A DNA stretch of 39,454 bases, taken from assembly GCA_002699025.1 (NCBI GenBank), contig PABA01000035.1, forward strand, positions 1 through 39,454. The letters run 5' to 3'. Positions 14,295 through 35,252 of this stretch are shown here, one piece after another (position 1 is the first letter of the stretch; the number at the start of each line of letters is the position of its first letter). The notes beneath the pieces were generated by a model that was not told the DNA's origin, did no database searches, and saw only the letters and a list, made by a program, of their open reading frames with translations. This DNA is from Sandaracinus sp. Its GTDB lineage: Bacteria; Myxococcota_A; Polyangia; Polyangiales; Houyiibacteriaceae. The position numbers were made by a program, and so were the translations under genes.

Positions 14295-14308
14295 ACTGCA
14301 CCCAGGCC

Positions 14309-15478: not shown

Positions 15479-15480
15479 CG

Positions 15481-16740: not shown

Positions 16741-16741
16741 C

Positions 16742-17443: not shown

Positions 17444-18840
17444 TGACCATGCGAAAGACCGAGAAGAAGGAACGCCGCCGTCGCCTGGGCCGCCGGGCGC
17501 TCATGCAGTGGAGCCTCGCCACGGGCGCGGCCCTCGGGCTCCCCCGCTGGAAGGTCTTCGAGGTGCTCGAGGGGACGGCCGGCAAGGCCCTCGCCGACGA
17601 CGCGAGCTGCGCCCCCTCGAACCGCTCCGTGCACATCGTCGCGGGCACGGGGGGCCTCGCCTGGTTCAACCTCCTCTGGCCGCACGTGGACGTGGCCGAG
17701 GCGGGGAACGCGGGCTTCAGCTGGCACGCCATCGGCGAGGAGACGCGCGCCATGGGCACGGCGAAGCCGCTGGTGCTCGGGCCCGAGTCGCCCTGGCAGG
17801 ATCTGCCGGGCGCGCGCCAGGTGACGGCGCTGATGGGCGGCACGAACGAGACGCATACGCGGACGCCCCAGTCGAACCTGAGCGTCGCCATGAACACGGG
17901 GCTCTTCGCCGCCTGCGCCGCCGTGCAGACCGCGAGCCCGACGCTCACGCCGGTCATCGCCGTCGGCGACGTGCCCTACCGGAACGCGCCGGGCGCGCCC
18001 CGGGTCGCGGGCGTCGGGAGCGCGGACGACATCGTCGGCCTCTTCGACAGCGCCGCCTCGCGCGCCGGGGGGCTGCTCTCCACCGAGGAGCATGCGGACC
18101 TCTTCCAGACCCAGTACAGCGCCTGGCTCTCGCTCCGCTCGGCGGCCGGCGTGCCCACCTGGCGGAGCGGCGTGGCGGCCGGTACCACCTCGTCGCGCCT
18201 GCTCGGCACGAACCTCGCGGACGCGCTGCGGGTGACGGACGCGGACCTCGCCCACTACGGCGTGAGCAGCACCTCGCGGAGCCAGAACATCCAGTTCGCG
18301 CGGACGCTCATCGTGACGGCGAAGGCCTTCGCGCACGGGCTGACGAACTCGGTGATCATGCCGGCGATGAACGACGACCCGCACGGCGCCTTCAACGACA
18401 TGGGGCGCCTGAGGCGGACGGCGCGCGAGCTCGGCCGGAGCCTCGACGCCTTCTACGAGGACCTCGCCGGCACGGACGACCCGACCTGCTCGGGGACGCT
18501 CGCCGACAACACCATCCTCTCGATCCATGGCGACACGCCGAAGAACCCGCTCCAGCGCGGCAACTGGCCCGACGGCACGCCGGGGAACTCGAACTGGGTG
18601 TACGTGCTCGGCGCCGGGCACCTCCGGAGCGGCTGGTTCGGCGGCATCGATCGCAACGGCAACGTGCGCGGCTGGGATCCGGCCACGGGCGAGGACCGGG
18701 GCGACATCTCGAGCGCGCAGAACGCGACGTCGGCCGCCGCGTCGATCCTCTACGCCGTGGCGAAGGGCGACATGCGGCGCGTGCAGGACTTCTACCGGGG
18801 CGCCGACCTCGGGGGCGTCATCACCGACGCCACCGTCTGA
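17443..18840 (+). CDS. DUF1501-like exported protein with Tat-type signal
   Basis: A 465-residue protein. The N-terminus has a basic run, then GRRALMQWSLATGAALGLP, which looks like a twin-arginine signal without the strict consensus. The mature part (SNRSVHIVAGTGGLAWFNLLWP, QVTALMGGTNETHT, NTILSIHGDTPKNP, WVYVLGAGHL) resembles the DUF1501 family of secreted proteins related to alkaline phosphatases and sulfatases. The usual metal ligands are not obvious. Possible starts are GTG 17440, ATG 17443 and ATG 17449; I chose the ATG overlapping the previous stop codon. It is the last gene of the 14309-18840 operon. Tat export would suit a folded, metal-bearing partner of the heme lipoproteins; that is inference. 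Confidence 0.8.
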   Translation: MTMRKTEKKERRRRLGRRALMQWSLATGAALGLPRWKVFEVLEGTAGKALADDASCAPSNRSVHIVAGTGGLAWFNLLWPHVDVAEAGNAGFSWHAIGEETRAMGTAKPLVLGPESPWQDLPGARQVTALMGGTNETHTRTPQSNLSVAMNTGLFAACAAVQTASPTLTPVIAVGDVPYRNAPGAPRVAGVGSADDIVGLFDSAASRAGGLLSTEEHADLFQTQYSAWLSLRSAAGVPTWRSGVAAGTTSSRLLGTNLADALRVTDADLAHYGVSSTSRSQNIQFARTLIVTAKAFAHGLTNSVIMPAMNDDPHGAFNDMGRLRRTARELGRSLDAFYEDLAGTDDPTCSGTLADNTILSIHGDTPKNPLQRGNWPDGTPGNSNWVYVLGAGHLRSGWFGGIDRNGNVRGWDPATGEDRGDISSAQNATSAAASILYAVAKGDMRRVQDFYRGADLGGVITDATV

Positions 18841-20030: not shown

Positions 20031-20059
20031 TTGATGATATTGAATACCAATTTCATTAA
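20031..20059 (+). promoter_or_regulatory. Promoter with embedded Fur-like operator, heme-uptake operon
   Basis: In this AT-rich island, TTGATG (20031-20036), a 17-nt spacer and CATTAA (20054-20059) fit -35 and -10 hexamers. TGAATAC-C-AATTTCA (20041-20055) inside it is a partial 7-1-7 dyad like a Fur box. The 12 nt CAATTTCATTAA are identical to those of the promoter at 26284-26312. Confidence 0.65.
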
Positions 20060-20068
20060 TCGTCCGCG

Positions 20069-20272
20069 ATGAGGTCGACGCCTCCCGATGTCGTTCGCCC
20101 CCTCCCGGGGGGAGACCTGCGCTGCCGCTGCCACCGGCTGCTCGCGCGCGTCGTCGACGAGGGCATCGAGATGCGCTGCGCCCGCTGCAAGCAGAGCGCC
20201 GTGCTGCGCTGGGACGTTCTCTCCGAGCTCCGACGAGAGCCAGCCCCCCTCGAGCTTCGCCCCGACGAGTAG
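20069..20272 (+). CDS. Small Com-like zinc-ribbon protein
   Basis: A 67-residue soluble protein. Residues about 18-50 (LRCRCHRLLARVV, then MRCARCKQSAVLRW) resemble the Com family of small zinc-binding proteins, first known as the translational activator Com of phage Mu. The four metal ligands are probably Cys/His of CRCH and the two Cys of CARC. The ATG is only nine bases after the -10 hexamer, so the mRNA may be nearly leaderless. The next gene, a TonB receptor, begins where this one ends. It may regulate translation of that gene or simply be a metal-binding protein. The small size leaves some chance that it is not expressed. Confidence 0.6.
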   Translation: MRSTPPDVVRPLPGGDLRCRCHRLLARVVDEGIEMRCARCKQSAVLRWDVLSELRREPAPLELRPDE

Positions 20273-20391
20273 CTCCCACCGCCGCTCGCGTCCTCGCGCT
20301 CGCCGGTCTCGCTGCGCTCACCCTCCCGGCGCGCGCGCAGGAGGCGGAGCCCATCGACGAGCTCTTCATCCTCACGGAGGAGGAGAGCGCC
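20272..20391 (+). other. Receptor signal peptide in frame, without a standard start codon
   Basis: Read in the frame of the TonB receptor, this stretch gives a near-perfect signal peptide, APTAARVLALAGLAALTLP then ARA, cleaving before QEAEPIDELF. It is preceded by RRV, but no ATG, GTG or TTG lies upstream in this frame. A C6 run at 20244-20249 could be a sequencing or slippage site. Confidence 0.6.
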
Positions 20392-22368
20392 GTGCCGCCG
20401 GCGACTCCTGCGGGGGCCGCCGGGGAGCGCGAGACCGAGGCCTCGAGCGACCCGAGCGCGGACGACGAGACGCTCTTCCTCGACGAGGTCGTCGTCACGG
20501 GCACCCGCCGCCCCGAGCGCGTCGCCGACCAGCCGGTCGCCACGGAGGTCCTCACCCGCGAGGAGATCGAGCGCTCCGGCACCGAGACCCTCGCCGAGCT
20601 CCTCGAGGAGCAGCCGGGCATGGACGTCTTCGACGGGCGCCGCGGCCAGGGCCTCCGCATGCGCGGCCTCGAGCCCGAGCACACGCTCTTCCTCATCGAC
20701 GGCGAGCGCGTCCCCGGTCGCATGGACGGCGTCCTCGACCTGAGCCGCTGGCAGCTCGACGACATCGAGCGCGTCGAGATCGTCCGCGGCGCCGCCTCGG
20801 CCCTCTACGGCAGCGACGCCCTCGGCGGCGTCATCAACATCATCCCCCGCCGCGGCGCCGGCGGCTGGGAGGCCGAGGGGCGCTTCACCTGGGGCGCCCG
20901 CGACTCGCGCCGCGACAACCGGCGCGACCGCTTCGAGGGTGGCCCGCGCCCTGACGGCGCCCCCCGGGACGCCTTCGGGGACACGCTGGACACCACGCTC
21001 CGCCTCGGCTGGGGCGGCGAGCGCGGCGGCGTCAGCCTCTTCGGCGGCCACCACCGCATCGACGGCTGGGACCTCGACCCCTCGAACGCGGCCACGAACG
21101 GCTCCGACACGGAGAGCTGGACCGGCGGCGCCCGCGCCTGGTGGAAGCCCGGCGCCCGCTCGACGCTCCGCCTCCGCGCGGACTGGTCGCGCCTCGACGC
21201 CGCCACCCGCGAGACCCGCGGCCGGGTCGTCGTCATGCGCCGCTCGCGCACCGAGCAGAGCGGCGCCTCCTTCGGCGCCGAGCACCGCACGCGCCGCGGC
21301 ACGCTCACGCTCCGCGCCAGCTACACGCGCTTCCGCGACCAGTTCCTGCGCCAGGTCCAGGGCGGCAGCGCCCTCGCGCCGCAGACCGAGACCCTCGAGC
21401 AGCTCGGCCAGCTCCAGGGCCGCTACCTCCACGTCTTCTCCGACGCCCACATCCTCACCGTCGGCTACGACACCTTCCTCGAGTCCCTCGGCAGCGATCG
21501 GCTCGAGCGCACGGGCCGCCGCGCCCGCCTCGCCCCCTACGTCCAGCACGAGTGGACCCCCAGCGAGGCCCCCGCGGTCACGCTCGTGCCCGGCGTCCGC
21601 GTCGACGCCGACAGCCTCTTCGGCGCGGCGGTCTCCCCGAAGCTCGCCCTCCGCGTCGACCCGACGGACGCGCTCGTGCTCCGCGCTTCCGGCGGCCGCG
21701 GCTTCCGCGCGCCCTCCTTCCGCGAGCTCCTGCTCCAGTTCGATGACAACGCGGCCCTCGGCTACGTGGTCGAGGGCAACCCCGACCTCCGCCCCGAGTC
21801 GAGCTGGAGCGTCGACGGCGGCTTCGAGTGGCGCGCCCATCGCCGCGCCTGGCTGAACGCGACCGCCTTCTACAGCCGCATCGACGACCTCATCGGCACC
21901 GACGTCCTCCGCGAGAACGACGGCGTCGCCACCTTCGGCTACGTGAACGTCGCCGAGGCGCGCACCCGCGGCGTCGAGCTCCAGGCGCGCCTGCGGCCCG
22001 TGCACCAGGGGCCGCACCGCGTGCGCGTCGAGCTCGGCTACTCCTTCCTCGACGCCGACGACCTCGGCCAGGGCCGCGCGCTCCCCGGCCGCGCTCGCCA
22101 CCGCGCGACCTTCCAGGCCCGCTACCGGCAGCGCGAGCTCGGCTTCGACCTCCTCTGGCGCTCCCAGCTCGTCGGCGCGCGCCCCTTCTACGTCGACGGC
22201 GAGCGCATCGAGGCGGAGCCCTACCTCTCTCTCGACCTGCGCCTCGAGCAGGCCATCGGCGACCACCTCCGCGCCTTCCTCGGCGCCGACAACGTGCTCA
22301 ACAACGGCGGCACCTACCTGAACGTGCAGCCGCGGACCTTCTGGTTCGGGCTGGCCGCGCGCCGCTGA
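20392..22368 (+). CDS. TonB-dependent outer-membrane receptor, heme/siderophore type
   Basis: Energy-dependent importer of an iron compound across the outer membrane, using TonB-ExbBD. From the first standard start (GTG 20392, with GGAGGAGGAG upstream) it is 658 residues. The TonB-box region is DEVVVTGTR. The plug domain (about 40-145) shows IERSGTETLAELLEEQPGMDV, LIDGERVPG and VEIVRGAASALYGSDALGGV, typical of BtuB/CirA-like receptors. The 22-strand barrel ends in FWFGLAARR. The signal peptide is encoded just upstream (20272-20340) without a standard start. The HmuY-like lipoprotein gene follows after 22 bp, as in hmuRY operons, so heme is the most likely ligand. Confidence 0.92.
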   Translation: MPPATPAGAAGERETEASSDPSADDETLFLDEVVVTGTRRPERVADQPVATEVLTREEIERSGTETLAELLEEQPGMDVFDGRRGQGLRMRGLEPEHTLFLIDGERVPGRMDGVLDLSRWQLDDIERVEIVRGAASALYGSDALGGVINIIPRRGAGGWEAEGRFTWGARDSRRDNRRDRFEGGPRPDGAPRDAFGDTLDTTLRLGWGGERGGVSLFGGHHRIDGWDLDPSNAATNGSDTESWTGGARAWWKPGARSTLRLRADWSRLDAATRETRGRVVVMRRSRTEQSGASFGAEHRTRRGTLTLRASYTRFRDQFLRQVQGGSALAPQTETLEQLGQLQGRYLHVFSDAHILTVGYDTFLESLGSDRLERTGRRARLAPYVQHEWTPSEAPAVTLVPGVRVDADSLFGAAVSPKLALRVDPTDALVLRASGGRGFRAPSFRELLLQFDDNAALGYVVEGNPDLRPESSWSVDGGFEWRAHRRAWLNATAFYSRIDDLIGTDVLRENDGVATFGYVNVAEARTRGVELQARLRPVHQGPHRVRVELGYSFLDADDLGQGRALPGRARHRATFQARYRQRELGFDLLWRSQLVGARPFYVDGERIEAEPYLSLDLRLEQAIGDHLRAFLGADNVLNNGGTYLNVQPRTFWFGLAARR

Positions 22369-22390
22369 GCCCATTCCCGACGGAGACCCC

Positions 22391-24031
22391 ATGCGAATGC
22401 GAACGACCCGGCTCTCTCGAACCGCGCTCTCCCTGGGCGCTCTCGTCGCGCTCGGAGGCTGCGGCGACGACCTGGACGAAGGCCTCCTCCCCGAGGACGC
22501 CGGCACACCGGTCGTCGACTCGGCGACGCCGCCCGGTGAGGACGCGGCCACCCCGCCGCCCTCGGAGCGGGTGCGCCACACGCCCGTGGAGGGCGGCACC
22601 GAGACCTTCGTGGACGCGAGCTCCATGGAGCGCTGGGTGCTCCTCGACCTCGACGCGGCCGGCGCGGAGGTCGACGCGGCGATCGACGAGGACACGACCT
22701 GGGACCTGGCGCTCCAGCGCTACCACTTCCGCACCAACGGCGGCGCCGGCGGCCCGGCGGGCGTGCGCGTGGCCGTGCTGGACGGCGTGGGCCTCGACGA
22801 GGTGACGCAGGCGCCGTCCGAGGGCTGGCGCCAGGACGCGCCGCCCATGGACTCGGAGATCCCCGGCGAGGTGACGGGCGACGGAGAAGTGCCGAGCACG
22901 GTGATCTCGAACGACGAGGACCCCTGGTACGAGTACGACGGCGCGACCCACTCGCTCACGCCGAAGACGCGCGTGTACGTGATCGAGAGCACGGAGCGCG
23001 CCTACTTCGCCCTCGAGGTCGTCGACTACTACGACCCGGCGACCGCCGAGGCCGGCTACCCGGCCTTCCGCTGGAAGGAGGTCGACGCGCCCGAGGCGCC
23101 GCCGGCGCCGGGCATCGAGGTGGACGCCAGCGACCGGGAGGCCTGGGTCCACCTGACGCTCGCGGGCGAGACCGTCGACGAGGGCGGCGCCTGGGACCTG
23201 GCGCTCCGGCGCACGGCCATCCGCACGCGCTCGGGCGCGAGCGCCGAGGGCTTCGGGGGCGCCAAGGAGCTCGTGGACGCGAGCTGGGAGAGCCTCGAGG
23301 CGACCAGCACGGTCGGCTTCGCCGTCGACACCCTGCTCCCGCTCCCGGGCCCGCCGGGCTCCGGCGAAGCGCCGGGCAACGAGCCCCTCTCGGGCTGGTA
23401 CGACTACGATCCGAGCACGCACGCGGTCTCGCCGCGCGACGCCATCTACGCCATCCGCGGCGGGGACGGGAGCTACGCGAAGCTCCGCATCCATGGCTGG
23501 GAGGACGGCGTCTACCGGCTCGAGCTCGAGCCCATCGCGGGCGTGGTCGATCGGCGCGAGGACGTCGTCGACGCGAGCGCCAGCGGCGAGTGGGCGCACT
23601 TCTCCTTCCGCGCGGGCGCGCTCGTCGAGACCGAGGCCCCCGCCGAGGACGGCGCCTGGGACATCGCCTTCTCGCGCACGCTCGTCCGCACCAACTCGGG
23701 CGCGAGCGGCGCCGGGGAGGGCGGGGCGGCCGAGGCGGAGACGAGCGACCTCGACGCCATCGACGCCGCGGCCGAGAGCTACGCGGCCGACGAGGAGGTC
23801 GCGCTCCCGGGCCCGCCGGGCAGCGGCACCACGCCGGCGAACCCGGTCCTGAACGGCTGGTACGCCTACGACCCGAGCACGCACACGGTGTCGCCGCGCG
23901 ACGCGGCCTACCTCGTGCGCACGGCCGACGGCGGCCACGTGAAGCTGCGCGTCCTCGCCTGGGAGGACGGCGTCTACACCCTCGACTGGGCCTACGCCGG
24001 CGCCGGTCGCGACTCCTTCGGAGGCGAGTGA
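22391..24031 (+). CDS. HmuY-like heme-binding lipoprotein with three tandem domains
   Basis: A 546-residue lipoprotein with lipobox ALGGC at about residue 24 and a Pro/Asp tether. HmuY of Porphyromonas is a surface hemophore that passes heme to a TonB receptor; it is a single domain of about 200 residues. Here the two HmuY hallmarks occur three times. WDLALQRYHFRTN, WDLALRRTAIRTR and WDIAFSRTLVRTN lie near residues 102, 265 and 420. The closing strand pairs (such as DGSYAKLRIHGWEDG and DGGHVKLRVLAWEDG) lie near 195, 353 and 506. Repeats 2 and 3 are closest to each other. Heme-ligand residues cannot be assigned by eye. The Kelch gene is coupled by TGATG at the 3' end. Confidence 0.88.
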   Translation: MRMRTTRLSRTALSLGALVALGGCGDDLDEGLLPEDAGTPVVDSATPPGEDAATPPPSERVRHTPVEGGTETFVDASSMERWVLLDLDAAGAEVDAAIDEDTTWDLALQRYHFRTNGGAGGPAGVRVAVLDGVGLDEVTQAPSEGWRQDAPPMDSEIPGEVTGDGEVPSTVISNDEDPWYEYDGATHSLTPKTRVYVIESTERAYFALEVVDYYDPATAEAGYPAFRWKEVDAPEAPPAPGIEVDASDREAWVHLTLAGETVDEGGAWDLALRRTAIRTRSGASAEGFGGAKELVDASWESLEATSTVGFAVDTLLPLPGPPGSGEAPGNEPLSGWYDYDPSTHAVSPRDAIYAIRGGDGSYAKLRIHGWEDGVYRLELEPIAGVVDRREDVVDASASGEWAHFSFRAGALVETEAPAEDGAWDIAFSRTLVRTNSGASGAGEGGAAEAETSDLDAIDAAAESYAADEEVALPGPPGSGTTPANPVLNGWYAYDPSTHTVSPRDAAYLVRTADGGHVKLRVLAWEDGVYTLDWAYAGAGRDSFGGE

Positions 24032-26079
24032 TGAAGCACGTGCGAAGCGTGGCGCCGACGTGCGCCCTGATCCTGGCCCTGGGCTGCGGAAGCACCCGGC
24101 AGGCCACCCCGACCACCGCGTCGAGCGAGCCGACCGTCGGCGTCTCGGAGACGCGCCCGGCGCCCGAGGAGCCCCTCGGCGTCGAGGTCGCCGTCGAGGG
24201 GCTGCCCCCCGCGCTGCCGCTCGGCATCACCAGCTTCGGCGCGGCCGAGCACGACGGGGACGTCTACCTGCTCGGCGGCTTCTTCGGCACGCCGCACGAG
24301 TACCGGCCCGAGGGCCAGTCGCGCACGCTCTGGGTGCTGCGCGATGGGGCCTCCTCCTGGGAGCGCGCGAGCGCCCTCGAGGCCGGGCTCCAGAGCGTGG
24401 CCCTGGTGCGCGTCGGCGAGCAGCTCCACCGCGTCGGCGGCATGCGCGCGGACGCGGAGGGCGAGCTCCACTCCACCGACGAGCACGCCCGCTTCGACCC
24501 GGCCACCGGCCGCTGGGAGGCGCTGCCCGCGCTGCCCACGCCGCGCTCGAGCCACGACGCCATCGCCCTCGGCGACGCGCTCTACGTGGTCGGCGGCTGG
24601 GCCATGGACGGGGCGCCGGACGACGCGCCCTTCCACGAGGCCATGCTGCGCTTCGCGGACGGCCGCTGGGAGACGCTCCCCGGGCCGACCCCGCGGCGCG
24701 CGCTCGCCCTCGCGGCGACGGACGGGCACCTGGTCGCCGTCGGCGGCATGGCACCGGACGGCTCCGTCGTGAGCACCGTCGAGGTCTTCGATCCGGAGGC
24801 CGGCACCTGGGCGCCCGGGCCCGATCTGCCGAGCCCGCCCGAGGCCGGCCCCGGCGCCGGCTTCGGCGTCGCCGCCGTGGGCGTGGGCGACGCCGTCTAC
24901 GCGAGCGGCCGGGACGGCGCGCTGGTGCGCTGGCGCGTCGGCGAGGAGAGCTGGACGCGCGTCGGCGCGCTCCGCTTCCCGCGCTTCTTCCACCGGCTGG
25001 TCGCGCGGGGCGAGCAGCTCCTGGCGCTCGGCGGCATCGGCGGCATGCACACGCACGGGCGGACGCGCCTCGTCGAGGCCATCGGCACCGACGGCGAGCG
25101 CCCGGGCCGGGTGCTCCTGACGCTCCCCTGGGCCGGCGAGGCGAAGAACCGGCAGGGCATGTTCCTGCTCGGCGATCACCTCTACCTCTTCGGCGGCAAC
25201 GACAGCCTCGGCCAGCACGACTTCGACGCCGAGCACTTCGTCGCCGAGGGCGTCCGCCTGCACATCCCCTCGATGAACGTCGAGGCGCGGGCCGCCTACC
25301 CGGTGCGCCGGCAGACCATGACCACCGTGCCCATCGACGAGGACACGGTCTGGCTCCTCGGCGGCTTCGGCCACGAGGCCGGCGGGGAGAGCGGAGAGAG
25401 CGGGGCGCCGAGCGAAGAGGGCGAGACCGTCGCCCGCACGCACCCGGAGATCTACGCCTACGACGCCGAGGCCGACGCCTGGAGCCTCCGCGCGCGCCTG
25501 CCCGTGGCCCGGAGCCAGGCCGGGGCCGTGCGCCACGGGGGCACGCTCTTCGCCATCGGCGGCCTCGACTACGACCCGCGCCGCCCCGAGGAGGCGCGCT
25601 TCGATCACCTCACGGAGGTCGTCGCCCTCGAGGAGGGCGCCGAGGCCTTCGCGCCGATCGACGCGCCGCTCCCGGGTCCGCGCCGCGCCTTCGGGGGCGC
25701 CGCGCTCGGGGATCGCTACGTGATGGTCGGCGGCATGCGCGAGGGCTTCCAGCTCGTGGAGGACTGCGCCGCCTTCGACCTCGAGCAGCGCGCCTTCGAG
25801 GACTTCCCCTGCCCGGCGCGGCCGCGGCTCAACCCGCAGCTCCTCACGGTCGGCGAGCGCCTCGTGCTCCTCGGTGGCACCATCCGCCTCGACGATGGCG
25901 AGCTCGGCGAGGACCGGTCGATCGAGGTCTTCGAGGACGGCGCCTGGCGCACGCTCGAGGCCGAGCTGCCCTTCACGCCCAAGCACGCGCGCGCCTTCGC
26001 CCACCGCGGCGGCGTGCTCGTCGTCTCCACGCACGTGGAGGAGGACGTGATCCGGCTCGCGTTCCTCGACCTCGAGTAG
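24031..26079 (+). CDS. Kelch-repeat lipoprotein, predicted beta-propeller(s)
   Basis: A 682-residue lipoprotein (lipobox LALGC at about residue 19). From about residue 60 onward it is a series of about 45-55-residue Kelch units with the paired-glycine strand and the W strand: VYLLGGFFG, LHRVGGM, LYVVGGW, LVAVGGM, LLALGGIGG, LYLFGGN, VWLLGGFG, LFAIGGLDY, YVMVGGM, LVLLGGT. About ten units would make a large or double propeller. It is the last gene of the heme-uptake operon, translationally coupled to the HmuY-like gene, so it probably sits on the cell surface with it, as a docking platform or host-protein binder. No catalytic motif is seen. Confidence 0.88.
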   Translation: MKHVRSVAPTCALILALGCGSTRQATPTTASSEPTVGVSETRPAPEEPLGVEVAVEGLPPALPLGITSFGAAEHDGDVYLLGGFFGTPHEYRPEGQSRTLWVLRDGASSWERASALEAGLQSVALVRVGEQLHRVGGMRADAEGELHSTDEHARFDPATGRWEALPALPTPRSSHDAIALGDALYVVGGWAMDGAPDDAPFHEAMLRFADGRWETLPGPTPRRALALAATDGHLVAVGGMAPDGSVVSTVEVFDPEAGTWAPGPDLPSPPEAGPGAGFGVAAVGVGDAVYASGRDGALVRWRVGEESWTRVGALRFPRFFHRLVARGEQLLALGGIGGMHTHGRTRLVEAIGTDGERPGRVLLTLPWAGEAKNRQGMFLLGDHLYLFGGNDSLGQHDFDAEHFVAEGVRLHIPSMNVEARAAYPVRRQTMTTVPIDEDTVWLLGGFGHEAGGESGESGAPSEEGETVARTHPEIYAYDAEADAWSLRARLPVARSQAGAVRHGGTLFAIGGLDYDPRRPEEARFDHLTEVVALEEGAEAFAPIDAPLPGPRRAFGGAALGDRYVMVGGMREGFQLVEDCAAFDLEQRAFEDFPCPARPRLNPQLLTVGERLVLLGGTIRLDDGELGEDRSIEVFEDGAWRTLEAELPFTPKHARAFAHRGGVLVVSTHVEEDVIRLAFLDLE

Positions 26080-26262
26080 CCCGCGCTCCCGCGGTCATGC
26101 GCGCGTGGCCTGCGCTCGTCACCCTCCGCCGCGAGTGGACGGCTGGGTGGGGATGGACCTCGCGAGACCGGCGGTCGGGTCGGGTGGCTCCGCCCGGCCG
26201 CCGGTGCTCGCGGTCTTCGGCCGGCGTGATGACGACGATTCGAGCCGAACGAAGAGCGGCGT

Positions 26263-26280
26263 CGTGTACGCACGTTTTTT
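26263..26280 (+). terminator. Weak hairpin plus T6, possible terminator of the Kelch operon
   Basis: CGTG-TACG-CACG followed by TTTTTT ends the 201-bp stretch after the Kelch gene. The stem is only 4 bp, but a T6 run is rare in this DNA. It lies just upstream of the next promoter. The rest of 26080-26262 shows no gene. Confidence 0.35.
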
Positions 26281-26283
26281 AAA

Positions 26284-26312
26284 TTGAAGAAAGTGAAAAT
26301 CAATTTCATTAA
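26284..26312 (+). promoter_or_regulatory. Promoter with embedded Fur-like operator, imelysin operon
   Basis: TTGAAG (26284-26289), a 17-nt spacer and CATTAA (26307-26312) fit -35 and -10 hexamers. The dyad TGAAAAT-C-AATTTCA (26294-26308) pairs at six of seven positions, close to the Fur 7-1-7 model. The layout is identical to 20031-20059. Confidence 0.7.
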
Positions 26313-26363
26313 CGACGCGTCGGGCCGGACGAGCCCGCGCTCCGGATTCCCAGGAAGGTGAAC

Positions 26364-27527
26364 GTGCTCTCGACCCCGCGCATCTTGTCTCTCGCGCTCC
26401 TCGTGGCCCTCGGCCGCGGCGACGACGGCGGCGGCCTCCCGGCCTCGAGCGAGGCCGCGATCTCCAGCTACGGCGAGATCGTCCACGCCAGCTACGCCGA
26501 CTCCCTCGCCGAGGCTCAGGCCATGGACGCCGCCCTCGACGCCTTCGTCGCCGACCCGAGCGAGACCACCCTCGACGCCGCGAAGCAGGCCTGGCTCGCC
26601 GCTCGCGTCCCCTACCTCCAGACGGAGGTCTACCGCTTCTACGACGGCCCCATCGACGGCATGGACGGCGACCCCGAGGGCCTCATCAACGCCTGGCCCA
26701 TGGACGAGCTCACGGTCGACTACGTCGAGGGCATGCCCGAGGCCGGCCGTATCAACGACCCGTCCTTCGAGATCAGCATGGCGAACCTCGTCTCCGCGAA
26801 CGGCGCGGGAGGCGAGGCCGACGTGGCCACCGGCTGGCACCCGATCGAGTTCCTCCTCTGGGGTCAGGACCTCACGGACCCGAGCATGGCGATGCCCGGC
26901 CAGCGCTCCTTCGAGGACTACACCACCGCGGACAACGCCGACCGGCGCGCCTCCTACCTCACGACCACCAGCGAGCTGCTCCTGAGCCACCTCCAGGAGC
27001 TCGTCGACGCCTGGGCCCCGGACACGCCCGGCAACTACCGGGCCGAGATGGACAGCGTCGATCCGGCGATCGCCCTCCAGCGCATCCTCACGGGCATGAT
27101 CGTCCTGAGCGGTTTCGAGACCGCCGGCGAGCGCCTCCAGGCCGCCCTGGACGCGGGCGATCAGGAGGAGGAGCACAGCTGCTTCTCCGACAACACGCAC
27201 GACGACATGCTCTACGACGTCCTCGGCGTGCAGAACGTCTGGGAGGGCGCCTACGTCCGCACGGACGGCACGAGCGTCACCGGCACGGGGATCGAGGCCG
27301 TCGTCCGCGAGCTCGACGCGAGCCTCGCCGACGAGCTCGAGGCGCGCATTCAGACCAGCGTCGACCTCGCGCGTGCTCTCGAGCCGCCCTTCGACCTCGA
27401 GATCCAGCCGGGCAACGCCGAGGGGAACGCGCGCGTGCAGGCGCTCATCGACTCGCTGCGCACGCAGGAGATGCTCCTCACGCAGGTCTTCGTGGAGCTC
27501 GGCTTCACGGTCCCCGACCCCGAGTGA
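26364..27527 (+). CDS. Imelysin-family (M75-like) protein, lipobox cysteine lost
   Basis: A 387-residue imelysin-like protein. The family covers periplasmic or surface iron-regulated proteins such as IrpA, the ICMP protease and EfeO relatives. The GxHxxE motif is present as GWHPIEF near residue 156, and the conserved CFSDNTHDDM and GVQNVWEG follow. These are the marks of a full, potentially metal-binding imelysin. The signal peptide is hydrophobic and ends LLVALGRGDDGGG. Every sign of a lipoprotein is there except that the expected Cys is Arg (CGC at 26415-26417). GTG 26364 has AGGA at a good distance; GTG 26358 is also open. It is the first gene after the Fur-like promoter. Confidence 0.88.
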   Translation: MLSTPRILSLALLVALGRGDDGGGLPASSEAAISSYGEIVHASYADSLAEAQAMDAALDAFVADPSETTLDAAKQAWLAARVPYLQTEVYRFYDGPIDGMDGDPEGLINAWPMDELTVDYVEGMPEAGRINDPSFEISMANLVSANGAGGEADVATGWHPIEFLLWGQDLTDPSMAMPGQRSFEDYTTADNADRRASYLTTTSELLLSHLQELVDAWAPDTPGNYRAEMDSVDPAIALQRILTGMIVLSGFETAGERLQAALDAGDQEEEHSCFSDNTHDDMLYDVLGVQNVWEGAYVRTDGTSVTGTGIEAVVRELDASLADELEARIQTSVDLARALEPPFDLEIQPGNAEGNARVQALIDSLRTQEMLLTQVFVELGFTVPDPE

Positions 27528-27545
27528 CGCGCCGTGAGGACGGAA

Positions 27546-28913
27546 ATGCGCCGCATCGCTCCCTTCGCCATCGCGCTCCTCGTCGCGTGCTCCTCGGGCC
27601 GCTCGCCCGAGCCGGGCGAGGCGCGCTCGGGGGGCGACGCGACGCACTTCCTCCTCTTCGGCTCCCAGTCCTTCACCTTCCCCGCCCCCAACCTCTCGAG
27701 CGAACGCCGCGCCGCCTTCTTCACGGGCAACGCCTTCTTCAACCAGGGCTGGGTCACGGCGCCGGCCTCCACGACGGCCCGCGACGGGCTCGGCCCGACC
27801 TTCCACGCGGGGAGCTGCTCGGCCTGTCACTTCCGCGACGGCCGGGGGGCCCCGCCCGACGAGGGAGGCACGGTGACCGAGGGCACGATTCCGCTGGCCA
27901 TCGGCCGCGGTCCGGACGGCGCGCCGCTCGGCGACCCCAGCTACGGCACGCAGCTCCAGCCCTTCGCCATCATGGGCGTGGAGGGCGAGGCGCGGCCGGT
28001 CGTGCGCTGGGAGGAGGTGCTCGGTGAGTACGGCGACGGCGAGCCCTACAGCCTGCGCCGGCCCGTGCTCACGCTCGAGGACCCGGCCTTCGGGCCCTTC
28101 CACCCGGACCTCGTCGCCGAGGTGCGCATGGCGCCGGCGATGATCGGCCTCGGGCTCCTCGAGGCGCTCCCCGACGCGACCCTCGAGGCGTTCGCGGACC
28201 CGGAGGACGCGGACGGGGACGGCATCTCCGGGCGCGTGCAGCGGGTCGTCGACGCCATCACCGGCGAGCGCGTCATCGGCCGCTTCGGCTGGAAGGCGGG
28301 TCAGCCCACCGTGCTCCACCAGAGCGCCGCCGCCTTCTCGGGCGACATGGGGCTCACCTCGCGGGTCTTCCCCGACGAGAATTGCCCGCCCGCGCAGGAG
28401 GCTTGCGCCGCCGCGCCCACGGGCGGTGAGCCCGAGGTGCAGGACGACATCCTCGACGACGTGGCCTTCTACTCGCGCACGCTCGCCGTGCCCGCGCGCC
28501 GCGCCGTCGACGATCCGGAGGTGCTGCGGGGGCGCGACGCGATGGTCGAGCTCGGATGCACCGGCTGCCACGCGCCGCGCCTCGAGACCGGCACGCTCGA
28601 GGGCTTCCCCGAGCTCTCCAACCAGACCATCCGCCCCTACACCGACCTGCTGCTCCACGACATGGGCGAGGACCTCGCCGGCCGGCCCGAGTTCGAGGCG
28701 AGCGAGGCCGAGTGGCGCACGCCGCCGCTCTGGGGCGTGGGACTCATCGACACCGTGAACGGCCACACGCACCTGCTCCACGACGGGCGCGCCCGCGGCT
28801 TCGCCGAGGCCATCCTCTGGCACGGCGGCGAGGCCGAGGCCGCCCGCGAGGCCTTCCGCACCGCGCCCCGCCGCGTCCGCGAGGCGTTGCTTCGTTTCCT
28901 GGAGACGCTCTGA
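27546..28913 (+). CDS. Di-heme oxidoreductase-family (DHOR) lipoprotein
   Basis: A 455-residue lipoprotein (lipobox LLVAC at about residue 15) of the family named di-heme oxidoreductive (putative peroxidase, formerly thiol oxidoreductase-like) proteins. Two heme-c motifs are present: CSACH near residue 91 in GPTFHAGSCSACHFRDGRG, and CTGCH near residue 337. The family-typical segments RMAPAMIGLGLLEA, GRFGWKAGQPT and WRTPPLWGVGLIDTVNGH are all intact. The gene lies between two imelysin genes, the same order as in the Fur-regulated PA4370-PA4373 region of Pseudomonas. ATG 27546 follows GAGGACGG; GTG 27534 is the alternative. A redox role in iron release or handling is likely but unproven. Confidence 0.9.
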   Translation: MRRIAPFAIALLVACSSGRSPEPGEARSGGDATHFLLFGSQSFTFPAPNLSSERRAAFFTGNAFFNQGWVTAPASTTARDGLGPTFHAGSCSACHFRDGRGAPPDEGGTVTEGTIPLAIGRGPDGAPLGDPSYGTQLQPFAIMGVEGEARPVVRWEEVLGEYGDGEPYSLRRPVLTLEDPAFGPFHPDLVAEVRMAPAMIGLGLLEALPDATLEAFADPEDADGDGISGRVQRVVDAITGERVIGRFGWKAGQPTVLHQSAAAFSGDMGLTSRVFPDENCPPAQEACAAAPTGGEPEVQDDILDDVAFYSRTLAVPARRAVDDPEVLRGRDAMVELGCTGCHAPRLETGTLEGFPELSNQTIRPYTDLLLHDMGEDLAGRPEFEASEAEWRTPPLWGVGLIDTVNGHTHLLHDGRARGFAEAILWHGGEAEAAREAFRTAPRRVREALLRFLETL

Positions 28914-30019
28914 TGACCACGCGCTTCCTTCGCCTCTCCGCGCTCTTCGCGCTGCCCGCCCTGCTCGCCGTCTCGTGCGGGGACACGGCCGGGGACGACT
29001 TCGACCGGAGCGCCATGCTCCGGTCCATCGGGGAGACCGTGATCCTGCCCACCTACCGGGACTTCGCCGCGGGTGCCCGGGCGCTCGATGCCGCCTCCGC
29101 CGCCTTCTGCGCGAGCCCCTCGGCGGAGACCCTGGACGCGACCCAGCAGGCCTTCTGGGACGCCAAGGGCTTCCTCAAGGAGGCCGAAGCCTCCGCCTAC
29201 GGGCCCCATACGGACAACCCGCTCCGGCTCGGCCCGCGGGTCGACTTCTGGCCCGCGCGCACGGACTCCGTCGACGCGCTCCTCGCGGCCGAGGACGCCG
29301 TCGATGCCGAGGCGCTGGCGAGCCGCGGCGCCGGCGAGGTCGGCCTGCCCGCCATCGGCTACCTGCTCCACGACCCGACCGGCGGCGACGAGGCCGTGCT
29401 CGCCGCCTTCGAGGCGGACGCGCGACGCTGCGCCTACCTCGAGGGGCTCGCGGCCTACCTCGTGGAGAGCGCCGACGCCTACGTGACGGCCTGGGATCCG
29501 AGCGGCGGCGACCACCTCGGCGAGCTGGCCGAGGGGCGGGGCCTCTACGTCGACGTCTTCCGCGCCGCCTCGCACGTCTTCGAGCAGGTGCTCTGGACCA
29601 TCGAGAACGTGCGCGAGCTGAAGCTCGGCAAGCCCTTCGGCAAGCGCGACGGCGGCGTGCTCCAGCCGGGCCAGCTCGAGGCCCCCTACAGTGGCCGCTC
29701 GCTCCAGGACGCCATCGACGCGCTCCGGGGCGCCGAGGCGGTCTACCTCGGGCGCCGGGGCGAGGTGCAGGGCATCGGCCTCCGTGACTGGCTCCTCACG
29801 CGCCGGCCCGCGCTCGACGCGGAGGTGCAGGCGGCCTTCGGGGACGCCTACGCGGCGCTCGAGGCGGTCGAGGGCCCGCTGCGCCAGGCCATCGAGAGCG
29901 ACGCCGCGGGCGTGGAGGACGCCTACCAGGCCGTGAAGGAGCTCCAGCTCGTGCTCAGCGTCGACGTGGCCCAAGCCCTCGCCATCACGGTCACGTTCAA
30001 CCCGACCGACGGCGACTGA
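28913..30019 (+). CDS. Second imelysin-like lipoprotein lacking the GxHxxE motif
   Basis: A 368-residue lipoprotein with a proper lipobox (LLAVSC, about residue 22). The all-helical imelysin fold is suggested by ILPTYRDFAAGARALDAA near the N-terminus, the FWDAKGFLKEAEASAYGP segment and the final LVLSVDVAQALAITVTFN. The place of the GxHxxE metal motif reads GLPAIGYLL, so both the His and the Glu are missing. This places it with the second, non-metal imelysins that accompany DHOR proteins. Its ATG shares one base with the DHOR stop codon (TGATG), so the two are coupled. It may act as a partner or chaperone of the di-heme protein. Confidence 0.88.
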   Translation: MTTRFLRLSALFALPALLAVSCGDTAGDDFDRSAMLRSIGETVILPTYRDFAAGARALDAASAAFCASPSAETLDATQQAFWDAKGFLKEAEASAYGPHTDNPLRLGPRVDFWPARTDSVDALLAAEDAVDAEALASRGAGEVGLPAIGYLLHDPTGGDEAVLAAFEADARRCAYLEGLAAYLVESADAYVTAWDPSGGDHLGELAEGRGLYVDVFRAASHVFEQVLWTIENVRELKLGKPFGKRDGGVLQPGQLEAPYSGRSLQDAIDALRGAEAVYLGRRGEVQGIGLRDWLLTRRPALDAEVQAAFGDAYAALEAVEGPLRQAIESDAAGVEDAYQAVKELQLVLSVDVAQALAITVTFNPTDGD

Positions 30020-30037
30020 CCCCCGAGGAGAGCGAAC

Positions 30038-31486
30038 GTGTCCATGGGCGGGCCTGGCGGGCGAAGCCCGTCCCCGGGGCGGGGCTCCGGAGCGAGCAGA
30101 GCGATGGCGCGCGCCGCCGCGGCGCTGGCCCTCGGCCGCGGCGAGGTCGACGCCGCCTCGCTCGTCCTCTTCCGCATCGCCTTCGGCGCGCTCATGACCG
30201 CCAACGTCGTGCGCTACGAGGCCATGGGCTGGGTGGACGACCTCTTCGTCGCGCCGACCCTCGCCTTCCCCTACTGGGGCTTCGAGTGGGTGCGCCCGCT
30301 GCCGGCGCCCGGGATCCACGCGCTCTTCGCCCTCGTCGCCGTGGCCGCCCTGGGCATCGCCCTCGGCGCCTTCTACCGGCTCAGCTGCGCGGTCTTCTTC
30401 CTCGCCTTCACCTACATCGAGCTGATCGACCGGACGACCTACCTCAACCACTACTACCTGGTGAGCGTGCTCGCGGCGCTCCTCTTCTTCATGCCGCTCC
30501 ATCGGGTGGCGAGCGTCGACGCCTGGCGCCGGCGCCGCCGCACCGGCGAGGCGAAGCCGCTCTTCGTGCTCCCGCGCTGGCCCCTCTCCGTGCTGCGGCT
30601 CCAGATCGGCCTCGTCTACGTCTTCGCCGGCCTCGCCAAGGTCCACGGCGACTGGCTCCTCGCGGCCGAGCCGCTCGCGACCTGGCTCCCCCGCCACACG
30701 GACCTGCCGCTGGTCGGCGGGCTCATGGACGAGCGCTGGCTCGCCTACGCCATGAGCTGGGCGGGCATGCTCTTCGACCTGACGATTCCCTTCTGGCTGA
30801 GCTGGCGCCGGAGCCGCGCGGTGGCCTACGCCGCCGTGCTCGCCTTCCACGCGGTCACGGGCTTCCTCTTTCCCATCGGCATCTTCCCCTGGCTGATGAG
30901 CGCCGCCGCCACGGTCTTCTTCGAGCCGGGCTGGCCGCGCCACTTCGCGCGCCTCGTCGGTCGGCCCCGCACCGCGCCCGCGCTCCCGCCGACGCCGGGG
31001 TGCCCGCTTCGTCCCCTCCGGCCCCGCCAGCTCTTCGCGCGCGTCGTCCTCGGCGTGCACTTCGCCGTGCAGCTCCTGCTTCCGCTCCGCCAGCACCTCT
31101 ACCCGGGCGAGCGCACCTGGCACGAGCAGGGCTTCCGCTTCGCCTGGAACGTCATGCTCGTCGAGAAGACCGCGATGGTGGACTTCCGCGTCGTCGACGC
31201 CGCCGGCGGGGAGACCGTCGTCCACCCGCGGGAGATCCTCACGCCGCTCCAGCGGCGCATGATGACGACGCAGCCGGACATGATCCTGAGCTTCGCCCAC
31301 CACCTCCGGGACCGCTGGGCGGCGGAGGGGCGCGGCGAGGTGGAGGTCTACGTCGACGCCTGGTGTGCGCTCAACGGGCGGCGGCGGCAGCGCTTCATCG
31401 ACCCGGAGGTGGACCTGGCGCGGGTCGAGGCGAGCCTCGCGCCCCGCGATTGGGTGCTCCCCCTCGCGCCGCGCGACGGCCGGTGA
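30038..31486 (+). CDS. HTTM / vitamin-K-dependent gamma-carboxylase-like membrane protein
   Basis: A 482-residue inner-membrane protein with about seven membrane segments followed by a soluble C-terminal domain. It belongs to the HTTM family that includes animal gamma-glutamyl carboxylase, which turns Glu into Gla using reduced vitamin K, CO2 and O2. Two sites fit catalytic residues of the human enzyme: LNHYYL near residue 137 (human His160 region) and AGLAKVHGDW near residue 201 (human Lys218 region). The C-terminal part (GERTWHEQGFRFAWNVML, then FIDPEVDLA) is also carboxylase-like. The GTG at 30038 follows GAGGAGAG; ATG 30044 and ATG 30104 are possible. It lies 18 bp after the imelysin gene. 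A menaquinone could replace vitamin K. Confidence 0.87.
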   Translation: MSMGGPGGRSPSPGRGSGASRAMARAAAALALGRGEVDAASLVLFRIAFGALMTANVVRYEAMGWVDDLFVAPTLAFPYWGFEWVRPLPAPGIHALFALVAVAALGIALGAFYRLSCAVFFLAFTYIELIDRTTYLNHYYLVSVLAALLFFMPLHRVASVDAWRRRRRTGEAKPLFVLPRWPLSVLRLQIGLVYVFAGLAKVHGDWLLAAEPLATWLPRHTDLPLVGGLMDERWLAYAMSWAGMLFDLTIPFWLSWRRSRAVAYAAVLAFHAVTGFLFPIGIFPWLMSAAATVFFEPGWPRHFARLVGRPRTAPALPPTPGCPLRPLRPRQLFARVVLGVHFAVQLLLPLRQHLYPGERTWHEQGFRFAWNVMLVEKTAMVDFRVVDAAGGETVVHPREILTPLQRRMMTTQPDMILSFAHHLRDRWAAEGRGEVEVYVDAWCALNGRRRQRFIDPEVDLARVEASLAPRDWVLPLAPRDGR

Positions 31487-31544
31487 TCCCAGCCCGCGTC
31501 GAGGTTCTTCTCCCGTCGAGCCGGGGCGCGCTACTCTGCGTGTC

Positions 31545-32810
31545 ATGAACGTGACGCGCGTGCGACGGGAACATCTCGCGGGGCTCCTCGCGACGGTGCT
31601 GCTCTTCGGTCTCGGCTGTGGGGACGATGGCGGCGAGCCCTACGAGATGCAGGTGGACACCTTCAACGTGGCGCTCGCCGGCGCCTTCATCCCCTACGAG
31701 GCGGAGCGCCGGCAGCCGATCATCGACGCGCTGGCCGCGAGCGACTCGGACGTGGTCTGCCTGCAGGAGGTCTGGCGTCAGGAGGACAAGGACCTCATCG
31801 AGGCCGGCGTCGCGGGCACCTTCCCGCATGCCGTCTCCTTCACGCACGGCCTCGACACGCCCGTCGACGATCCGACCGACCAGGAGGGCATGGTGCCGCC
31901 CACGCCGACCGCGCCACCCTGCGCGGACGCGACCCTCGCGAGCCAGTTCGAGGCGGCCGTCGCCTGCCTCGAGGAGAACTGCAACTCGGAGCCGGGCAGC
32001 GACGCGGGGCAGACCACCAGCTCGGCCTGCGCGCAGAGCGAGTGCCTCGACGTGGTGACGCCGCTCATCCTCGGCGACGACGCGGCGCTCGCCTGCTACT
32101 CGTGCCTGACGACGAGCCTGCCGACCGAGCCCTTCGCCGACATGCGGGACCTCTGCACGAACGAGGTCGGCGCCGAGCTCGCCTTCCGTGGGCAGAGCGG
32201 CGTGATGATCCTCTCCCGGCACCCGCTCCGGGACGCCGAGGCCTTCGTCATGCCCGGCACCTGGAACCGGCGCATCGTCGCGAGCGCGACCGCCGAGCTG
32301 CCGAACGGGAGCGAGGTCGACGTGCACTGCAACCACCTCACGCCGATCTTCGACTCGATCGCCTTCCCCTACACCGGCGACTACGGCGACGAGATGGACG
32401 GCCCCGACGGCTGGGCCGCCGAGCAGCTCCTCCAGGCCGGCAAGCTCGTCGACTGGGTGGGCGAGCGGAGCGCCACCCGGCCGGCCGTGATCCTCGGCGA
32501 CATGAACGCGGGCCGCGCCGGCGACGGGCTCACGGCCGAGGGCGTGGCCACCATGGACGTCCTCGAGGGGGCCTTCACGCTCGCCGTGGCGTCGGACTTC
32601 ACGCCGAGCTGCACCTTCTGCCCGGACAACCCGAACGCGAGCGAGGGCTCCCCGGCCGTGTGGATCGATCACATCTTCGTCGCGAACGTCGAGGCCGAGG
32701 ACGTGCTCTCGACCGAGGTCGTCTACGACGAGTCGACGGTCTCCGCCGATGGGATGATGGTCCCGCTCTCCGACCACTTCGCGCTGCGGAGCGTGATCGC
32801 CATCGACTGA
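31545..32810 (+). CDS. Endonuclease/exonuclease/phosphatase-fold lipoprotein
   Basis: A 421-residue lipoprotein (lipobox FGLGC at about residue 25) of the DNase I/sphingomyelinase superfamily, which hydrolyses phosphodiester or phosphomonoester bonds with a divalent metal. The motifs are VDTFNVAL, VVCLQEVW (catalytic Glu), GVMILSRHPL, CNHLTP, ILGDMNAG (Asp/Asn), WIDHIF and the terminal SDHFALRS (Asp-His). All are present, so it looks active. An insertion of about 80 residues (about 125-205) with eight cysteines interrupts the core and could form four disulfides or bind metal. It begins 58 bp after the carboxylase-like gene and may belong to the same transcript. The substrate is unknown: nucleic acid, sphingolipid and inositol phosphate all fit. 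Confidence 0.87.
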   Translation: MNVTRVRREHLAGLLATVLLFGLGCGDDGGEPYEMQVDTFNVALAGAFIPYEAERRQPIIDALAASDSDVVCLQEVWRQEDKDLIEAGVAGTFPHAVSFTHGLDTPVDDPTDQEGMVPPTPTAPPCADATLASQFEAAVACLEENCNSEPGSDAGQTTSSACAQSECLDVVTPLILGDDAALACYSCLTTSLPTEPFADMRDLCTNEVGAELAFRGQSGVMILSRHPLRDAEAFVMPGTWNRRIVASATAELPNGSEVDVHCNHLTPIFDSIAFPYTGDYGDEMDGPDGWAAEQLLQAGKLVDWVGERSATRPAVILGDMNAGRAGDGLTAEGVATMDVLEGAFTLAVASDFTPSCTFCPDNPNASEGSPAVWIDHIFVANVEAEDVLSTEVVYDESTVSADGMMVPLSDHFALRSVIAID

Positions 32811-33361
32811 GCCTGCGGCCTTCGGCTGGCGGCCTGCGGCCTTCGGCCTGCGGCCGGGGTTTCGTCGCCTTCGGAGACGAGCGGCCGTAGGCCGCGGGGG
32901 TCGGGGAACTGGGGTGCGTCGGGTGCGTGGGCGGCACGGCGACCGCGTCGGCCGCGTCCGGGGGGACGTCGGGTGCTGCGGCCGTCGGCCTTCGGCCCGG
33001 GGGTCGGGGTTTCGTCGCCTTCGGCGACGAGCGGCCGCTGGCCGCGGGGGTCGGGGAACTGGGGTGCGTCGGGTGCGTGGGCGGCACGGCGATCGCGTCG
33101 GCCGCGTCGGGGGGACGTCGGGTGCTGCGGCCGTCGGCCTTCGGCCTTCGGCCGGGGGGTCGGGGTTTCGTCGCCTTCGGCGACGAGCGGCCGTAGGCCG
33201 CGGGGGTCGGGGAACTCGGGTGCGTCGGGTGCGTGGGCGGCACGGCGACCGCGTCGGCCGCGTCGGCGGGGCGGTCGGCTGCTGCGTTCGGCCTCTGGTC
33301 GGGGGGCGGGGGTTCGTCGCCGTTGGACGACGCGCGGCTCAGCGCGCTGTTACGCTCGGGC
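32811..33361. repeat. About 150-bp tandem repeat, three copies plus a degraded fourth
   Basis: Units anchored on TTTCGTCGCC start at 32860, 33010 and 33166 (periods 150 and 156), with a decayed copy near 33312. Each unit carries hairpins: TCGTCGCC-TTC-GGCGACGA, GCGGCC-NNN-GGCCGC and GGCC-TTC-GGCC. Loops vary while stems hold, for example GTA and GCT in the second hairpin. The 551 bp contain no supported gene. Open frames through them arise because both unit lengths are multiples of three. Confidence 0.88.
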
Positions 33362-33905: not shown

Positions 33906-35252
33906 TCAGGCGGGGGTGGCGGGGAGGGTGAGGCGGAAGGTCGCGCCGCGCTCGGTCTCGTCGAGGGCGACGCGGCCGCCGTGGAGCTCGGCCACGTCGC
34001 GCACGAGCGCGAGGCCGAGGCCGGCGCCGGGGCGGTCCTGGCGGCCGCGGTGGAAGGGGACGAAGACGTGCTCCCGCTCCGCCGTCGGCACGCCCGGCCC
34101 CTCGTCGCGCACGACCAACGCCCAGCCTTCGCCGGCCCGCTCGAGGGCGACGCGCACGGTGGAGCCGCGCGGCGCGAACTTCAGCGCGTTGCTCAGGAGG
34201 TTGTCGAGGGCGCGGCGGATGAGGTCGGGCACCACCGTGGCCTCGGCGTCCCGGGCCCCCTCGAGGGCGAGCGCCACCTCGCGGGTGGAGGCGTCCGCTT
34301 CGAAGCGGGCGAGGCTCTCCCGGGCCAGGTCGTGCAGGTCGGTGCGGACGAGCGCGCGCTCCTGGGCGCGGAGCGCGGCGAGGTCGAGGAGCGCCGTCGC
34401 CATGCGGTCGAGCCGGTCCACCTCCTCGCGCACGTCCTCGAGGGTCTCGCGGAGCTCGGCAGCGTCGCGCTCGCGGCGGAGCGCCACGTCGACGGAGGCG
34501 CGCATGGCCGCCAGCGGCGTCCTCAGCTCGTGGGCGGCGCCGGCGACCAGCCGCTCCTGCGCCTCGCGCGCGTCCCGGAGCCGGCGAGTCGCGCGCGCGA
34601 CGGACGCGCGGAGCTCGCCGAGCACGTCGCGCTCCGGATCGGGCGGCGGCTCGGCCTGGAGGTCGCCCGCCTGGAGCCGGCGCATGTGGCGGGCGAGCCC
34701 CTCGACCCGCCGGGCGAGGCCGCGGGCGTGGCGGCGCTGCACGAGCAGGAGCAGGAGCGCGACGAGGGCCAGGCCGGCCAGGCCGAGGCGCGTGAAGAGG
34801 CCCATGGTGGCCTCGACGGGGGCGAGCGGCGTCGCGAGCCAGAGCGCGTAGGGCTCGCCGCCGGGGGAGGGGACGCGGACGACGAGCACGCGCTGGCCGT
34901 CTGCGCTCCGGAGCCGTGGCTCCGTGTCGGGTGGGGGGGCGAGCTGGGGCGGCGCGGCCTCGGCGGTGGAGGAGCGCGCGAGGCGCGCGCCGTCCGGGCC
35001 GTAGGCGGCGATGGCGGCGTCCGGGCTGCCGAGGGCGGCGCGCACGGGCGATTGGATCGCGTGGAAGTGCACCGTGCCGCCGGGCCCGTCGAAGAGGCTG
35101 ACCGACTCGGCGGCGGCCTGGGCGCGGAGCGAGTTGTCGAGGCCGGCGACGAGCTGGGCCCGGAGGAGGAGGCCGACGCCGACGCCGCCGGCGGCCATGA
35201 GCAGGAGCGGGAGCGCGACGCCGTGGAGCATCAGGCGTTGCTGGAGCCTCAT
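33906..35252 (-). CDS. Two-component sensor histidine kinase
   Basis: A 448-residue membrane sensor that autophosphorylates on His and passes the phosphate to the adjacent regulator. One membrane helix lies near residues 10-35, a periplasmic domain of about 120 residues follows, then a second helix near 155-175 (LAGLALVALLLLLV) and a HAMP-like segment. HisKA has the H-box AAHELRTPLAAMRASV. The ATPase part has the N-box DNLLSNALKFA, G1 DEGPGVP and G2 GAGLGLALV, all intact. The ATG overlaps the regulator stop by 4 bp (ATGA). Its position behind a CzcA-type pump gene suggests that it senses a periplasmic metal such as Zn, Cd, Co or Cu. The gap to the convergent lipoprotein gene is only 52 bp. 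Confidence 0.93.
   Translation of the reverse strand: MRLQQRLMLHGVALPLLLMAAGGVGVGLLLRAQLVAGLDNSLRAQAAAESVSLFDGPGGTVHFHAIQSPVRAALGSPDAAIAAYGPDGARLARSSTAEAAPPQLAPPPDTEPRLRSADGQRVLVVRVPSPGGEPYALWLATPLAPVEATMGLFTRLGLAGLALVALLLLLVQRRHARGLARRVEGLARHMRRLQAGDLQAEPPPDPERDVLGELRASVARATRRLRDAREAQERLVAGAAHELRTPLAAMRASVDVALRRERDAAELRETLEDVREEVDRLDRMATALLDLAALRAQERALVRTDLHDLARESLARFEADASTREVALALEGARDAEATVVPDLIRRALDNLLSNALKFAPRGSTVRVALERAGEGWALVVRDEGPGVPTAEREHVFVPFHRGRQDRPGAGLGLALVRDVAELHGGRVALDETERGATFRLTLPATPA

Follow-up and report, generated by a model that had tools for sequence, protein, structure and literature searches.

A putative two-operon surface iron acquisition system with a vitamin-K-dependent carboxylase homologue in a Sandaracinus genome

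The window analyzed here is the whole 39,454-nucleotide stretch of Sandaracinus sp. contig PABA01000035.1, contig 46 of a 238-contig, 9.24-Mb genome (G+C 74%), and its relatives in searches were Myxococcota records. It contained two neighbouring gene groups. One is best read as an imelysin/di-heme iron operon of the Pseudomonas type that has a carboxylase of its own, and the other, its partner, as a receptor-HmuY-Kelch operon. In the whole explanation, to which we give a probability of about 0.6, both operons stand under one Fur-type repressor and form a surface iron acquisition system, in which the carboxylase modifies a secreted partner. The features are as follows.

20035..20059, no strand: operator-like site of the first group, overlapping Fur-box-like 15-mers (20035-20049 and 20041-20055) plus the shared TTAA; TGAATACCAATTTCATTAA
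20069..20272, plus strand: Com-like zinc ribbon, 67 amino acids, first gene of the first group (relatives in genomes G405, G169, G372, G188 and G409)
20269..22368, plus strand: TonB-dependent receptor with signal peptide (PF00593 5e-50, plus Plug, PF07715; NCBIfam and PDB matches; mechanical start of the reading frame GTG 20392)
22391..24031, plus strand: lipoprotein with HmuY domains (PF14064, three stretches in one protein, 8.5e-46; lipobox ALGGC; HmuY-type chains 8b6a and 3h8t)
24031..26079, plus strand: Kelch beta-propeller lipoprotein (PF01344/PF24681, 2.5e-29; lipobox LALGC)
26294..26312, no strand: operator-like site of the second group, perfect 7-1-7 palindrome plus TTAA; TGAAAATCAATTTCATTAA
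26358..27527, plus strand: imelysin 1, ICMP/LruB type (PF09375, 4.8e-70), GWHPIE kept, lipobox Cys replaced by Arg
27534..28913, plus strand: di-heme DHOR lipoprotein, DUF1111/EfeB-like (PF06537, 1.1e-92; heme-c motifs CSACH and CTGCH)
28913..30019, plus strand: imelysin 2, IPPA/PA4372 type, lipoprotein (PF09375, 3.6e-38; family profile matches IPPA 3pf0), TDGD end, motif acid replaced by Gly
30038..31486, plus strand: vitamin-K-dependent gamma-carboxylase homologue, HTTM (PF05090, 1.2e-82) plus VKGC lumenal domain (PF22777, 4.8e-49)
31545..32810, plus strand: endonuclease/exonuclease/phosphatase-like lipoprotein (PF03372, Exo_endo_phos, 1.7e-13), doubtful member

All nine genes were real: their reading frames were backed by codon-position G+C, and a Pfam search upheld the names given in a first-pass annotation of the same DNA. 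Because the gaps within the groups were short (imelysin 1-DHOR 7 bases, imelysin 2-carboxylase 19 and receptor-HmuY 23) and the ATG codons of Kelch (24031) and imelysin 2 (28913) each overlapped the TGA of the preceding gene, each group forms a tight operon. A 279-base gap holding the second operator-like site lies between them.

A Fur-box-like palindrome, TGAWWWTNAWWWTCA, precedes both groups. At both group starts it lies in an A+T-rich island within G+C-rich DNA (TGAATACCAATTTCATTAA at 20041 and TGAAAATCAATTTCATTAA at 26294); the second of these sites is a Fur-box-type palindrome, 7-1-7 and without mismatch. When the whole genome was searched at up to one mismatch, TGAWWWTNAWWWTCA was found at four sites: two overlapping at the first group, one at the second, and one on contig 19, which adjoined an ABC-transporter-like ATPase gene and a DNA methylase-like gene. 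The reversed pattern, used as a whole-genome control, gave no sites. A 19-base pattern built from both sites had no further site in the genome at up to two mismatches and one at three. This sole three-mismatch match (locus L118, contig 99, near 9354) lay where a gene with MopE copper-binding motifs begins.

The box was also found in relatives. In the window plus 21 related Myxococcota loci, the start zones of the module genes (imelysin 1, receptor, HmuY and Kelch) made up 10% of the sequence. All 7 perfect sites lay at these starts, as did 16 of the 18 sites with up to one mismatch. Seven loci held 11 sites, compared with a mean of 0.045 for permuted patterns. The pattern was derived from the window's own sites, so independent evidence comes from the relatives' sites and not from those in the window. 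The first-pass annotation had suspected two co-regulated operons, and one co-regulated iron system in two operons is supported, because the same rare box heads both groups and the same genes in relatives. Two Fur-family genes are present in the genome, and Fur would be the likely binder of this putative operator.

The receptor-HmuY-Kelch group adjoined the imelysin group in loci L038 (rearranged), L121 (same order, no carboxylase), L124, L125 and L127, and in part in L119 and L120; these loci represent further families and classes within the phylum. Because five or more additional genomes, from several families, had the groups side by side in differing gene orders, the linkage of the groups appears to have been retained rather than inherited as one arrangement. 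A comparison of gene order in other Myxococcota had been proposed beforehand as the check on the system, and an outcome in which the groups are not neighbours in relatives was sought and not found. One could still propose that a heme/siderophore receptor operon and an imelysin operon are separate systems, which share only Fur control and a chance neighbourhood. In genome G188 they lay on different contigs (L037 and L122), several genomes have imelysin operons without the receptor group, and in Chloroflexota the fetched loci contained the second group but no receptor. The recurrent adjacency in differing orders speaks against separate systems, and we regard this explanation as rather unlikely. 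The surface iron system in two operons claimed at first pass therefore stood, and the membership of the phosphodiesterase-like gene did not: it was rejected, as the gene had no relative in any fetched related locus, and it probably lies outside the system.

On sequence grounds, the carboxylase is no accessory oddity: its pairing with imelysin 2 is conserved in four phyla, a point that the first-pass annotation had missed. Eighty loci from these phyla were collected by similarity to the window's carboxylase, and an imelysin adjoined the carboxylase in 77, of which 72 had both genes on one strand and 5 on opposite strands; contig ends cut the last three loci. The most constant neighbour was imelysin 2. 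The order imelysin 1-DHOR-imelysin 2-carboxylase was found in Myxococcota, Acidobacteriota (Sulfidibacter, L039) and Chloroflexota (L043, L051, L059, L061, L070 and L071), and Bacteroidota had the order DUF4856-imelysin-carboxylase-receptor. Of 379 Myxococcota genomes drawn from across the phylum, 100 had the carboxylase domain, 154 an imelysin and 94 both, so that imelysin was present in 94 of 100 carboxylase genomes vs. 60 of 279 others (Fisher p 1e-39, relatedness ignored). The carboxylase lay within 6.5 kb of an imelysin at 98 of 120 Myxococcota places (65 against the 150 best imelysins, plus 20 and 13 from re-searching the remaining genomes), where ~0.3% per place was expected. Gene context tracked the family tree, with 7 changes vs. 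25 in shuffles (FastTree; many weak branches). Iron-related neighbours were found as well: a PepSY/flavodoxin reductase upstream in Winogradskyella, and a ferritin-like protein and a periplasmic binding protein in a Dehalococcoidia locus. Contig 61 of the same Sandaracinus genome carries another imelysin-carboxylase-receptor locus (L117, 178000-196000), beside a purD-like gene; its order is Bacteroidota-like without DUF4856. No paper discussing the carboxylase-imelysin pairing was found in the openly licensed literature, which is weak evidence of novelty.

The carboxylase aligned with human GGCX over residues 36-476 (E 1.4e-47). Its predicted model (pLDDT 86, pTM 0.86) clearly matched only GGCX entries (Foldseek 1.6e-24; Z 31.6 over 439 residues to 9wfc), so that HTTM and the lumenal domain are predicted to adopt the GGCX fold. 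The activity of human GGCX requires both Lys218, the base with which the reaction begins, and His160 (PMC9146348). They correspond to K201 and H138, and both residues were invariant in 93 of 93 bacterial sequences. By sequence, the catalytic residues are intact.

The mechanism proposed for the system is as follows. The first group (zinc ribbon, TonB receptor, triple HmuY and Kelch) would capture an iron compound, possibly heme, and carry it across the outer membrane. The second group (imelysin 1, DHOR, imelysin 2 and carboxylase) would handle iron at the cell surface or in the periplasm, where DHOR probably alters the iron redox state and the imelysins would bind iron or hand it on. The carboxylase would be an active, quinol-using inner-membrane enzyme that faces the periplasm. 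If GGCX-like, it acts on the periplasmic side, and exported lipoproteins would therefore be its available targets. We conjecture that it carboxylates Glu to metal-binding gamma-carboxyglutamate in a secreted operon partner, imelysin 2 being the likeliest. Iron is the probable cargo, because relatives in Riemerella, Leptospira and Pseudomonas are iron- or Fur-linked in published data. Heme is a possible cargo because HmuY is present, and the HmuY-domain lipoprotein adjoins the TonB receptor. The PDB alignments of HmuY (8b6a and 3h8t) stop short of the HmuY ligand positions.

Imelysin 1 keeps the GxHxxE motif as GWHPIE, and its G, H and E were conserved in 100% of 22 imelysin-1 proteins. It was matched by P. 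aeruginosa ICMP (7xrx) at 1.1e-63, and by the LruB model NF047655 at 5.6e-46, below its cut-off. One imelysin had been noted at first pass to have lost its lipobox, and this held for imelysin 1: it reads LVALG-R-GDD (26358-26430) where relatives have Cys, and the Arg codon is one base from TGC. In imelysin 2, the motif GxPAx(D/E) reads GLPAIG (29339-29362), with Gly for the acid, which is D or E in the other covering sequences and one base away; the variant motif GxxxxE is thus missing in the window, and family membership rests on the remaining protein. Imelysin 2 proteins (29997-30019 in the window; L037-L134) end nearly always in D-x-D-G-D or a D-N-D variant. The acidic tail, an unexplained family feature, is found also in Psychrobacter IPPA 3pf0.

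Several observations weigh against this explanation. The activity and substrate proposed for the carboxylase are conjectural. The bacterial protein ends at about human residue 513, so that the C-terminal ~245 residues of the human enzyme are absent. Homologues with 30-37% identity in Bernardetia and Paracoccus albus have no imelysin near, and the pairing therefore appears confined to a subfamily. About 20 Myxococcota carboxylase places, some at contig ends, also lacked a nearby imelysin, and four imelysin-DHOR-imelysin loci had no adjacent carboxylase (L121, L127, L132 and L133). The DxDGD tail of imelysin 2 was rejected as a carboxylase recognition tag, since the carboxylase-free Psychrobacter IPPA 3pf0 has it and it is a family hallmark. 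No Glu specific to carboxylase-linked imelysin 2 was found, with four unlinked loci for contrast, and the Glu of ESxYS was missing from Chloroflexota imelysin 2 proteins whose loci have the carboxylase. With its Cys lost from imelysin 1 and its acid from imelysin 2, this copy of the system may be altered or may carry base errors. The NCBIfam matches of the receptor were split among B12, heme and siderophore families, all under curated cut-offs (TonB-hemin 168 bits vs. 317; B12 197 vs. 600). A Leptospira homologue reportedly has an altered activity without protein carboxylation.

That last report would also favor an explanation in which the iron system is the same, and the carboxylase homologue makes no carboxyglutamate but uses menaquinol and oxygen for another oxidation, e.g., in DHOR or iron redox chemistry. 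It would fit a gene linked to a di-heme oxidoreductase operon, and a protein that kept Lys218 and His160, yet has a loop, ExGxRxxW (363-370), that is invariant in bacteria and unlike the aligned human sequence; the absence of the human C-terminal third points the same way. However, the lumenal domain is invariant together with both catalytic residues, and many loci of the Bacteroidota type have imelysin and carboxylase without DHOR, so DHOR is not a general partner. We consider another oxidation rather unlikely. A cargo other than iron, such as vitamin B12, copper or another metal, is very improbable: the best-scoring NCBIfam match of the receptor was a B12 receptor model, but well below cut-off, and the Fur-type box, the imelysin, DHOR and HmuY families and the iron responses in Riemerella and Leptospira all argue against it.

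For the two-operon iron system, the consequences concern above all the carboxylase. Bacteria were recognized long ago to have vitamin-K-dependent carboxylase homologues, which to our knowledge have no accepted job, and the biochemical role of imelysins is poorly understood. Adjacency in four phyla and a shared iron-type switch tie the carboxylase to imelysins, and two open questions merge into one. In humans, the vitamin-K enzyme activates clotting factors; a close relative of it sits within the putative iron-capture operons of a myxobacterium-like microbe, and the linkage offers a testable idea of bacterial carboxylase function, the case for which is genomic linkage and conserved residues. 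Tentatively, and with less confidence than in the system itself, we speculated that the vitamin-K-dependent carboxylases of bacteria specialize in maturing surface imelysins, making carboxyglutamate on secreted iron-binding lipoproteins under iron starvation. If true, bacteria from several phyla would use carboxyglutamate to capture iron.

The start of the first operon had a layout of its own. The zinc ribbon matched Com (PF10122) weakly (0.014, below cut-off); its relatives were 45-60% identical, and most lay directly ahead of a receptor signal peptide. The receptor frame with signal peptide begins at the stop codon of the zinc ribbon (about 20269) and not at 20392. In the window, no ATG, GTG or TTG was found ahead of this signal peptide (20258-20275 region). 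A restart of a receptor-type signal peptide across the ribbon stop was found in six genomes: ATGA in L146, TTGA in L147, CTGA in L148 and L149, and GTAG in the window and L150. This suggests translational coupling, possibly by the Com-like ribbon, and the layout resembles com-mom of phage Mu. A conserved RNA hairpin at the junction, as in com-mom, was rejected (z 1.06, 0.57 and -4.35 in three genomes; not conserved).

Outside the two groups, a tandem array of ~3.4 copies of a 156-base unit (32829-33338) directly follows the phosphodiesterase-like gene. A histidine kinase, an OmpR-type response regulator and an AcrB-type RND pump are encoded on the minus strand at 33909-38982. Upstream, at 14012-18840, there is a row of genes with weak cytochrome-c and PSCyt2/PSCyt3/PSD2 domains, which are typical of planctomycete-type cytochrome proteins.

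Among known systems, the P. aeruginosa operon PA4370-PA4373 (ICMP, EfeB-like DHOR, PA4372 and a fourth gene), described as Fur-regulated (PMC3143127), has the same imelysin-DHOR-imelysin order, which the first-pass annotation had rightly attributed to Pseudomonas, and its ICMP is close to imelysin 1. That operon description mentions no carboxylase; in the window, the carboxylase takes the fourth position, and a receptor-HmuY-Kelch operon adjoins. A Pseudomonas plasmid copy comprises a DHOR-like cytochrome c, an imelysin and a hypothetical protein, with no carboxylase nearby. The Ftr1-type permease EfeU of EfeUOB systems was not found by the Pfam search among the genes at 20.0-32.8 kb. In Riemerella anatipestifer (RAYM_09779-09794), receptor, carboxylase and imelysin are likewise neighbours. 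RNA-seq showed these genes and the next one to be up under iron limitation, and they are listed as Fur-regulated, without discussion of the carboxylase (PMC5609570); however, this locus is of the Bacteroidota type (DUF4856-imelysin-carboxylase-receptor, as in L045) and has no DHOR. The Leptospira LruB operon (LIMLP_14170-14180) also consists of the LruB imelysin, a cytochrome/thiol-oxidoreductase and an imelysin; LruB, the DHOR-like neighbour and the second imelysin are peroxide-responsive, and the imelysins are iron-responsive as well (PMC7567364). The HmuY/HmuR heme uptake system of Porphyromonas shares the HmuY-domain lipoprotein beside a TonB receptor, but here three HmuY domains lie in one protein, Kelch and the zinc ribbon are added, and heme binding is a possibility. 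Vertebrate GGCX differs in the loop and in its additional C-terminal residues, and shares with the bacterial homologue, a putative carboxylase, the predicted fold over the whole length of residues about 41-513 and the catalytic Lys218 and His160.

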